Part shown: piece by piece, positions 52,802-55,407 of the stretch
How positions within the stretch are numbered: the first letter of the stretch is position 1
Layout: each line of letters opens with the position of its first letter
From: Rhodospirillales bacterium
Lineage (GTDB): Bacteria > Pseudomonadota > Alphaproteobacteria > Rhodospirillales > Shumkoniaceae
DNA length: 64,000 nt
Direction: 5' to 3'
Assembly (NCBI GenBank): GCA_016776725.1
Contig: JADHSV010000010.1
Span: forward strand, 1 to 64,000
Made by a program: the position numbers and the translations under genes
Notes under the pieces: generated by a model
What the model saw: the letters and a program-made list of their open reading frames with translations, nothing else
Told to the model about the DNA's origin: nothing
Databases searched by the model: none

Positions 52802-53749
52802 ATGGCGGAGAAATCCACGAAGGCAGCACCGGCCAAGCAAGCGAAAAAATCAGGCGAGGCAAAAAACCTTGGTATTGAGGGGCGTCGTCGTGCGCGGCCA
52901 AATCTGGATTTTTCCGGCGTTAATATGCCCCGTGAGATCGCGGCGTGGAATGCGGCTGGCCAATATCCCTACGATAAGAAGCTTAAGACTCGCGAATACG
53001 AGGCGATGAAGACGGATTTACAGATCGAGCTTCTCAAGGTGCAGCGTTGGGTCAAGGATTCGGGCCAAAGAATCATCCTGATTTTCGAGGGCCGGGACGC
53101 GGCCGGGAAGGGTGGAACGATCAAGCGCTTTATGGAGCATATGAACCCTCGTTCCGCACGGGTTGTCGCCCTTGAAAAACCGACCGACCTGGAACGCGGC
53201 CAATGGTATTTCCAGCGCTACGTTCAGCACCTGCCGACGGCAGGCGAAATGGTTCTGTTCGACCGCTCCTGGTACAACCGGGGCGGTGTCGAGCGCGTCA
53301 TGTCGTTTTGTACCGACGAGCAATATCATCGATTCATGCGCCAGGCCCCCGAATTTGAACGCATGCTCATCAATTCGGGTCACCTGCTTTTCAAATATTG
53401 GTTTTCGGTCAGCCGCGAGGAACAACTGCGCCGCTTTCAGTCGCGCCGTATCGATCCGCTAAAGCAGTGGAAGTTAAGCCCTGTTGATATTCAGTCACTG
53501 GATAAATGGGACGCCTACACCGAAGCCAAGGAGGGGATCTTTTTTAACACCCATACGCCCGACGCACAGTGGACGGTGATCAGGTCCGACGACAAGAAGC
53601 GGGCGCGGCTGAACTGCCTGCGTCACTTTCTGCACAACCTGCCCTATCCCGACAAGGACCGCGGGGTTGCCAAGGCTCCCGATCCCAATATCGTTTCTCC
53701 CGCCGTTGCCGTCATGAGTGAAAAGGCGAGAAGAAAGGGCAAGAAATAG
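52802..53749 (+). CDS. ppk2: Polyphosphate kinase 2
   Basis: Transfers phosphate between polyphosphate and nucleotides. The 315-aa one-domain (class I-like) enzyme has Walker A FEGRDAAGKGGTIKR, then VALEKPTDLERGQWYFQRYVQHLP and the lid/Walker B FDRSWYNRGGVERVMSF. Whether it prefers ADP or GDP is not decided. A basic Ala/Lys N-terminal extension (about 1-35) precedes the core. GGGGGAAG lies upstream of ATG 52802. It stands alone, with a 248-bp A/T-rich leader that has no Pho box I can identify. Confidence 0.94.
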   Translation: MAEKSTKAAPAKQAKKSGEAKNLGIEGRRRARPNLDFSGVNMPREIAAWNAAGQYPYDKKLKTREYEAMKTDLQIELLKVQRWVKDSGQRIILIFEGRDAAGKGGTIKRFMEHMNPRSARVVALEKPTDLERGQWYFQRYVQHLPTAGEMVLFDRSWYNRGGVERVMSFCTDEQYHRFMRQAPEFERMLINSGHLLFKYWFSVSREEQLRRFQSRRIDPLKQWKLSPVDIQSLDKWDAYTEAKEGIFFNTHTPDAQWTVIRSDDKKRARLNCLRHFLHNLPYPDKDRGVAKAPDPNIVSPAVAVMSEKARRKGKK

Positions 53750-53800
53750 CGACGGCAACCTGCCGGGCAACGGCTGTCATCGAAGCGTAGCGGCTTGGCC

Positions 53801-54148
53801 TTATCCGTGAGCCGAATACCCCACGGGCGGCCTGTAACCGGAAACGACCGATCCGGCGCGGACCATGGCGCGTTTGCCTTCCTCCGGTGTAATCAGCGTC
53901 GTGGTTTTCATCGTGGAATTCACGCCCGCGCTGGAAATGGTCAGCATGCACGCGTCCAGACTTTCGTTATCGGGAAACTCGATTATCGCCGCGCCATCGA
54001 AGTCGCCGAAGGCAAAGTAAAAGTCGTGTAATTCGCCGCCGAACGCCTCCACCACCTTTTGCAACTCCGCAACCCTGTCTTGGGGCGCTTCAACCAACGC
54101 CCGGACTTGAGGGTCTTTGTAGGTCCATTGGAAAAGATAATGATTCAT
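53801..54148 (-). CDS. GYD domain-containing protein
   Basis: A 115-aa protein of the GYD family: YLFQWTYKDPQVRALVEAP, LQKVVEAFGGELHDFYFAFGDFDGAAIIEFPDNES, TTTLITPEEGKRAM. The FxxGxYDxxxxxxxPD core is present. The function of the family is unknown. GGAG lies seven bases before ATG 54148. It stands alone on the minus strand. Confidence 0.87.
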   Translation of the reverse strand: MNHYLFQWTYKDPQVRALVEAPQDRVAELQKVVEAFGGELHDFYFAFGDFDGAAIIEFPDNESLDACMLTISSAGVNSTMKTTTLITPEEGKRAMVRAGSVVSGYRPPVGYSAHG

Positions 54149-54238
54149 GGCTGGTCTCCGATGAATTCAGTTGATCCAAAGGGACGTCCGCAGAAGCTTG
54201 ATTATACCAAGCCGGAGCCACCGGAGTCTTCATCATGT

Positions 54239-54509
54239 TTGAGCATTTTCCGACCAAATGCGGTCATTCTGATGCACTTCTGTGGAACGATCCGCTGGGC
54301 GTTTCGCGAAGCGCGACGCTTTCGCATCGGGCGAGCGGAACAACGACACGGGCGGCCACCGAAGCGCACCCTTCGGGCGGGCCGTTTAAGGCCGTGCCGT
54401 CGTCGAACCCCTTGCGCGAACACAAAAAGGCTGCGCGCTGCACGGTTCTCCTAACCGCGGCCTTAAACGGTCACGTCAGAATGACCGCATTAGGTTGGAA
54501 AGTGCTCTA
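54239..54509. repeat. Nested inverted-repeat element (MITE-like)
   Basis: A 271-bp gene-free element. Outer arms: 54239-54272 and 54476-54509, 34 bp with 30 identical positions, sharing the perfect 16-base core AATGCGGTCATTCTGA. A second inverted repeat of 13 bp (CCGTTTAAGGCCG, 54382-54394; its complement at 54458-54470) lies inside, and several GC hairpins fill the centre (for example GCGAAGCGCGACGCTTTCGC). Such nested symmetry is typical of non-autonomous mobile or REP-like elements, or a large structured RNA. I see no transposase and no clear target-site duplication. Confidence 0.75.
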
Positions 54510-54523
54510 GGCGGGAAATCGCC

Positions 54524-54847
54524 TCACCTTTTTTTCTTGGCGTCGGCGATGCGCTGGGCGGCGGCGACGTGCTCGACCTTGGCCTGCATATGCTGGAGCG
54601 ACTCAGTGACCTCGGTGCGAATTTCGGACAGGGCGTCCATATCCTTTCTCAGCAATGCGATTTCTTTCACGGCGGCGTTCTGCGCGCTGGTTAAGTCATT
54701 CATTCTTGTCAGCAGGGGTTCGATATGCAGGCGAAGAAACTCCTGGCCGGTTTCATCGGATTTCCTCATTGCCAGATTGGCAAAGAACAAAGAGCCGAGG
54801 CCAATAACAATGGCTAAAATGCTGAAGACGATTCCGATGTTGTTCAT
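54524..54847 (-). CDS. Small membrane protein with coiled coil
   Basis: A 107-aa protein with an N-terminal membrane helix (IGIVFSILAIVIGLGSLFFANLA, about 4-26) and a long helical tail (about 35-100) with heptad-like hydrophobic spacing (LLTRMNDLTSAQNAAVKEIALLRKDMDALSEI), likely a coiled coil. It ends with a basic KKKR. No family recognised. Confidence 0.72.
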   Translation of the reverse strand: MNNIGIVFSILAIVIGLGSLFFANLAMRKSDETGQEFLRLHIEPLLTRMNDLTSAQNAAVKEIALLRKDMDALSEIRTEVTESLQHMQAKVEHVAAAQRIADAKKKR

Positions 54848-54966
54848 TGCGATTTCACTCTTTCCGTAGGTATCGCTTTTTTTCGTTTGACTGTGCCAGT
54901 TTACGGATCAATTTTCCTCTGTCCAAGAGGCTGATTGCTGTTGCCGACTTTTTTTTCAGTACCCTG

Positions 54967-55407
54967 CTAGGCCGAATCCATCCAGATGGTGACCGGACCG
55001 TCATTGACGAGACCGACATCCATGTGCGCGGCAAAGACCCCGGTTTCCACGGGAACGCCCAGACTTTTTAGCGCCTCGCAGTACTCGGTATATAGCGGAT
55101 CGGCAATTTCTGGGCGCGCCGCGCTGCTGAAGCTGGGGCGATTTCCCTTACGCCAGTTGCCGGCGAGGGTGAACTGGCTGATAACCAGCGCTTCCCCGCC
55201 CATATCCAGAAGCGACAGGTTGAATTTTCCGTCGTCGTCCGAAAAAACTCGCATGCGCGCGGCCTTGCCGGCGAAATAGACGGCGGTCTCACTTTCGTCG
55301 CCCCGTTCGACACACAAAAAGATAACGAGGCCGCGGTCAATCGTTCCTCGCGTTTTCCCCTCGACCGACACGCTTGCCTTTTTTACGCGTTGTAGAACCG
55401 CTTTCAT
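54967..55407 (-). CDS. dtd: D-aminoacyl-tRNA deacylase
   Basis: Frees D-amino acids from mischarged tRNA. The 146-aa product has MKAVLQRVKKASVSVEG, ALVISQFTLAGNWRKGNRPSFSSAA (the SQFTL motif) and the C-terminal GVFAAHMDVGLVNDGPVTI, with the Gly-Pro of the second motif near NDGPVT. I start at ATG 55407 (homologues start MKAVLQRV); 55422 would add five residues. Confidence 0.95.
   Translation of the reverse strand: MKAVLQRVKKASVSVEGKTRGTIDRGLVIFLCVERGDESETAVYFAGKAARMRVFSDDDGKFNLSLLDMGGEALVISQFTLAGNWRKGNRPSFSSAARPEIADPLYTEYCEALKSLGVPVETGVFAAHMDVGLVNDGPVTIWMDSA

Follow-up and report, generated by a model that had tools for sequence, protein, structure and literature searches.

The sequence between positions 54239 and 54509 of the window, i.e. 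the whole 64,000-nt stretch of contig analysed here, is one copy of a repeat that is built as an inverted dimer of two folded halves, inserts cleanly at YTAR with duplication of TA and amplifies within genomes. It probably belongs to a large family of non-autonomous DNA transposons (MITEs), for which an IS630-type mover acting in trans and modules working as folded single strands may be proposed. The family is short, non-coding and multi-copy, has terminal inverted repeats and inserts precisely with duplication of the target TA. By every criterion tested it is thus a MITE, in a variant form that we could not match to any described family in a comparison covering Rfam and the RUP, Correia, REPIN, CIR and QMITE elements. 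An earlier note had proposed a miniature inverted-repeat element on the basis of the window alone; multiple copies and filled and empty orthologous sites with a TA duplication bear this mobile-element reading out, while the entity is larger than the note described. The window copy and its neighbors are made up as follows:

54239..54509, plus strand: complete element, 271 bp, TA at both ends (the left one reads TT), full-length match to covariance model R1
54239..54272, plus strand: left terminal inverted repeat, 5' arm of P1, TTGAGCATTTTCCGACCAAATGCGGTCATTCTGA
54273..54368, plus strand: left folded module P2, a bulged hairpin (approximate limits), with unpaired conserved GGGCG ... AACG here
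54369..54377, plus strand: small central hairpin P3, CCCttcGGG, symmetry point and site of length variation
54378..54475, minus strand: right folded module P4, reverse-complement relative of P2 (approximate limits), containing the 13-bp inner repeat
54476..54509, minus strand: right terminal inverted repeat, 3' arm of P1, ending GCTC-TA
54524..54847, minus strand: coiled-coil ORF, 107 aa, stop codon 14 nt from the element
53801..54148, minus strand: putative GYD-like ORF (so named in the earlier note), 115 aa, start at 54148, 90 nt beyond the left end of the element

Direct reading agrees with the earlier description of the outer arms (54239-54272 and 54476-54509), which are identical at 30 of 34 positions and have the 16-mer AATGCGGTCATTCTGA in common, as well as with that of the perfect 13-bp inner inverted repeat (54382-54394 and 54458-54470). 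A repeat search of the stretch returns the arm repeat as 32 nt at 91%, and the 21-nt arm core exceeds chance expectation. The element lies, as had been stated, in a gene-free stretch between the GYD-like and coiled-coil ORFs: the overlapping ORFs 54235-54510 and 54059-54454 (91 aa and 131 aa) show no signs of being genes, and a coding reading was rejected. With a folding energy of -148.8 kcal/mol (z -8.45 versus 200 dinucleotide shuffles), the window copy folds far better than its shuffles, and the pairing is conserved between lineages with heavy covariation.

R1, a covariance model derived from 19 copies with a consensus of 92 pairs, matches the window copy over its full length (231.7 bits, E 9.9e-54). 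In the incomplete assembly of the organism itself, an R1 search finds at least 14 full copies, three close and at least 11 more distant, so that the suspected multi-copy family does exist there and also in related genomes. Besides the window copy, a DNA search yielded two near-complete copies in the same genome (88% and 83% identity) and, from other families of the order, divergent copies. Of the 248 genomes searched in the order, 115 have R1 matches; the numbers are 52 of 385 for the class and 26 of 299 for the phylum, where other classes of Pseudomonadota are included. Hosts identified in the scan of genome contigs comprise Thalassospira, Aurantimonas, Ahrensia, Bauldia, MAGs of Kiloniellaceae and Rhodospirillaceae and a single Holophagaceae MAG. 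Plasmid carriage is documented by 166 records from Rhizobium and 12 from Sinorhizobium, and further by plasmids of Azotobacter and Halomonas and a conjugative plasmid of Pseudomonas aeruginosa; a search for phage carriage gave no match for the window copy or a Rhizobium copy. Element length is nearly fixed at about 263-276 bp. Complete copies outside the organism's own genome are of near-equal length with arms of about 33 bp, the sequences of which vary among copies yet stay complementary within each copy. Many of the MAG contigs from the scan (L189-L268) end within or beside an element, which suggests that assemblies tend to break there and that counts of the element are too low.

Several shortened or extended forms were encountered. 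Arm-only mini-hairpins of 34-60 bp in genome G000 (C22:49927-49987 and C39:39767-39791) are probably deletion derivatives and resemble the common short TAGAGC...GCTCTA palindromes of Rhizobiales. Extra hairpin-forming inserts of about 80-100 nt are located at the center (P3) or in the right module, as in L357 from R. etli IE4803 and L053 from genome G028. Contig C1 of the latter genome also has at least six 88-nt matches (380374, 764845, 850495, 1451162, 2264262, 2439077) to R2, the model built from left modules alone, all with the same score of 33.2 bits; these look like a separate family of solo-hairpin repeats.

Mobility is evident from orthologous sites. In Rhizobium etli, plasmid pRetMIM1d of strain Mim1 is filled while p42e of strain CFN 42 is empty, and the Mim1 flanks joined at a single TA give the CFN 42 sequence with identity over 122 nt. 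Further filled/empty pairs in Rhizobium beringeri (TP6/TP66) and Thalassospira (genomes G225/G177) present the same picture. The flank consensus reads Y-TA[GAGC...GCTC]TA-R with YTAR as the target, and longer target duplications did not occur above chance in the flanks of the copies. TA-duplicating insertion is the mode of Tc1/mariner-IS630 transposases, and the family shows the TA target and the TA duplication expected of MITEs moved by this group. The earlier statement that there is no clear target duplication holds for the window copy, where it is not visible because the left TA reads TT, but not for other copies, in which the TA duplication is seen. Amplification within genomes is equally apparent: genome G181 carries about 24 copies of one lineage, three of which are identical at unrelated loci with two more differing from them by 1-3 bases, and the nearest relative of a copy usually resides in the same genome (47 of 55). 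At 1790-2275 of L117 (G000:C32), a TACC-ended member is nested in a GAGC-ended one at an internal CTAA; a 3-bp duplication of TAA fits this junction better than TA, and the TACC-ended lineage may duplicate 3 bp instead of 2.

Pairing is conserved in the interior of the element. Already in the first consensus of 19 copies, 75 of the 92 pairs had double compensatory changes. When 71 copies are aligned, 94% of the cells are paired (96.1% in the P1 arms) and 88 of 92 pairs have changes on both sides, a level reached by none of 500 shuffles and to be compared with 37-41% pairing in slid-partner controls. Each end consists of the roughly 33-bp arm and a bulged hairpin module of about 100 nt, the right module being a reverse-complement copy of the left. 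This inverted-dimer anatomy is seen in 108 of 119 copies, in which the left half compared with the reverse-complemented right half beats all controls, and in most copies R2 also picks up the right module, on the other strand, with E values down to about 1e-11 (its match to the left module of the window copy spans 54272-54372, E 1.4e-13). In the aligned lineages, an AGG-type motif marks the 5' side of the left hairpin and an ACG-type motif its 3' side, and the same design recurs as its reverse complement in the right hairpin. Both modules conform to the strict pattern WAGGNR...RACR in 60 of 117 copies, as against 6.5-8% per module in shuffled sequences. The module design is kept across lineages with the unrelated ends TAGAGC, TACCAA, GTGGAT and AGGGTCT. 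Such a conserved interior fold is unusual for a MITE; to our knowledge, bacterial MITE families usually have only their ends in common.

Mismatches in the helices reveal that arms and modules differ in strand polarity. The arms show no preference between G-T and A-C mismatches (52 versus 43), as would be expected of ends recognized in the form of double-stranded DNA. Helices 3-5 of the left module contain more wobble pairs than A-C (78 versus 13, or 5.0% versus 0.8%), whereas the relation is reversed in helices 7-8 of the right module (wobble 15, A-C 29; 1.9% versus 3.7%). Two wobble columns dominate the basal right helix, which without them is also reversed (24 versus 38). This polarity suggests that constraint acts on each module as one strand, read from its own end toward the interior. 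The strand could be RNA or single-stranded DNA, which we rate as about equally likely; from the large structured RNA suggested previously, the conserved pairing with strand polarity thus stands, while the two kinds of strand are indistinguishable here. The pairing might instead be kept by quasi-palindrome correction, i.e. hairpin-templated repair, in which case the fold would have no function and selection no part in it. Correction at the DNA level would indeed give the equal wobble and A-C mismatches found in the arms, but bulges and unpaired residues such as those of the strict pattern have been retained rather than corrected away and the wobble polarity of the modules is asymmetric, which makes this explanation quite improbable.

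Genomic positions were assessed with a simple ORF caller, and the pattern is therefore approximate: the 68 cleanly intergenic copies include 30 with convergent and 11 with divergent neighbors, and 50 of 87 neighboring gene 3' ends fall within 20 nt of the element (median 8). The 14-nt distance of the window copy from the stop codon of the coiled-coil ORF is typical in this respect. Insertion at a stop codon would cost little because YTAR contains TAG/TAA and the element starts with TAG on both strands. Placement behind genes, strong covariation and conserved unpaired residues could also mean that the element is no transposon but a gene for a structured RNA, or an mRNA element, spread through ordinary duplication. 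This is highly improbable, as it is largely refuted by the empty sites, with their precise presence or absence of the element at orthologous loci and the TA duplication. Furthermore, co-directional copies are split 15 versus 12 in their orientation to the genes, without bias, element copies have neither a promoter-like site nor terminators above the chance number, and Rfam release 15 gave no match at E<=1 in window positions 53700-55000 and, for 14 related loci, two matches alone that were far below gathering scores.

As to the enzyme that moves the family, IS630-type transposases are candidates. IS630-family elements in several element-carrying genomes begin with TAGAGC (L309, L318, L310, L339); their likeness to the ends of our elements stops after about six bases, with only TA-GAGC in common. 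In one case (L317, G053:C99, 1102-2190) an IS630 element with the ends TAGAGCGTGTTCATAAA sits exactly at the TA abutting a complete element. None of the IS630 elements carries modules, those noted in L317 belonging to the neighboring element. The earlier note saw no transposase, in line with the search for an arm-sharing transposase in 29 Thalassospira genomes, which gave none: the sequences seen there with the arms of the active G181 lineage were family copies and their deletion derivatives, the listed arm pairs of this lineage are spaced as in an element or closer together, and an IS630 match is absent from G181 itself. Presence of the element is independent of that of DDE_3 transposases in the 248 genomes of the order (49 with both, 66 with the element only, 52 with DDE_3 only, 81 with neither; p 0.61). 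Since no full-arm match turned up in the 29 Thalassospira genomes and transposase presence is independent of the element, the assignment to an IS630-type mover is based on the target and the terminal bases. An autonomous parent with a central gene was considered for genome G196, where pairs of half-modules occur 1.6 kb apart, and was rejected: they represent two single-module derivatives flanking a host ORF with the appearance of a magnesium transporter gene (L361, G196:C1:692000-697000). One of the derivatives has about 165 nt between its ends.

The arms differ between lineages, which is odd for a single sequence-specific transposase. It is conceivable that the mover recognizes the folded interior and not the arms, with a transposase or host nuclease binding the hairpin pair as single-stranded DNA during replication, similar to Y1 enzymes acting on REP or IS200/IS605 ends. 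The conservation of the interior where arms are unrelated and a strand polarity that follows the ends would agree with such recognition, and TnpA of IS200/IS605 makes use of subterminal secondary structure (PMC6006769). A TA duplication at palindromic YTAR and true inverted repeats, on the other hand, point to a DDE enzyme working on double-stranded ends rather than a Y1 enzyme, and we consider recognition of the fold unlikely. According to the preferred reading, an IS630-type (Tc1/mariner-like) DDE transposase supplied in trans would cut at TA-GAGC and paste the element into TA. Such sites would often coincide with or adjoin a stop codon, and the terminal TAG could then take over as the stop. 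Each module would function as a folded single strand that is read from its end toward the middle, such that a transcript from either neighboring gene, or a replication strand, would always form one correct module. They may help synapsis and transposition, or process and protect the 3' end of the neighboring mRNA so that insertion is tolerated.

Among known systems, RUP of Streptococcus pneumoniae is an IS630-linked MITE of 107 bp, whose ends closely match those of IS630-Spn1; it resembles our family in being non-autonomous and intergenic with terminal inverted repeats and TA insertion (PMC2229807), whereas our family has TA-GAGC alone in common with IS630 and in addition the conserved two-module fold. 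The Correia or NEMIS elements (CREE) of Neisseria are flanked by TA, 105-157 bp long, and have terminal repeats without a known transposase (PMC2649163). One CREE copy contains CAAGGCG-N40-CAACGC on the minus strand, reminiscent of the invariant residues and their spacing in our module and suggestive of homology, but CREE are shorter with one module at most, and the score of the module model on one CREE is not significant (2.9 bits, E 0.63). Correia copies were examined on viral contigs L381-L386, and the ends AGTGGAT/AGTGGTC of lineage L115/L116 from the organism's own genome resemble Correia TAGTGGAT. As an extension that we hold to be unlikely, TA-inserting elements ranging from those of Rhizobiales and Rhodospirillales to those of Pseudomonas, and perhaps including Correia, would form a superfamily defined by the inverted pair of folded modules, with a mover that recognizes the fold and not the arm sequence.

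REPs are moved by a Y1 transposase. The wording "REP-like block" in the earlier note was therefore wrong in detail; REPs measure 20-40 bp (PMC3733652) and are linked to TnpA-REP (PMC8266576). REPINs and BIMEs are likewise inverted, extragenic, multi-copy hairpin pairs, but our family differs from a REPIN by its true terminal inverted repeats of about 33 bp, the TA duplication and the modules of about 100 nt. The CIR elements of Caulobacter are repeated intergenic structured elements of Alphaproteobacteria as well, yet at about 110 bp they consist of two arms joined by a linker, have GANTC in a loop and do not pair from end to end (PMC2229807), in contrast to the end-to-end P1 stem and 271 bp found here. 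RIMEs, Sm and ABC palindromes are intergenic palindromic repeats in Rhizobiaceae (PMC2573895), a likeness at the level of published description. The Coxiella elements QMITE1 and QMITE2 are similar to our family as large folded MITEs; QMITE2 has unique duplications of 7-9 bp and QMITE1 was reported to lack relatives in other genomes (PMC5896051). Our literature search found no published description of the family, which is weak evidence as subscription papers are poorly covered.

A fold of about 200 nt with conserved unpaired residues thus persists across unrelated ends and proteobacterial classes. This raises the question of which enzymes mobilize the numerous orphan MITEs found in proteobacteria, and whether insertion behind genes is rendered harmless by a nucleic-acid fold that a selfish element brings along. 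With the covariance model, it would be possible to annotate a major repeat that carries no label so far and often forms the end of MAG contigs.
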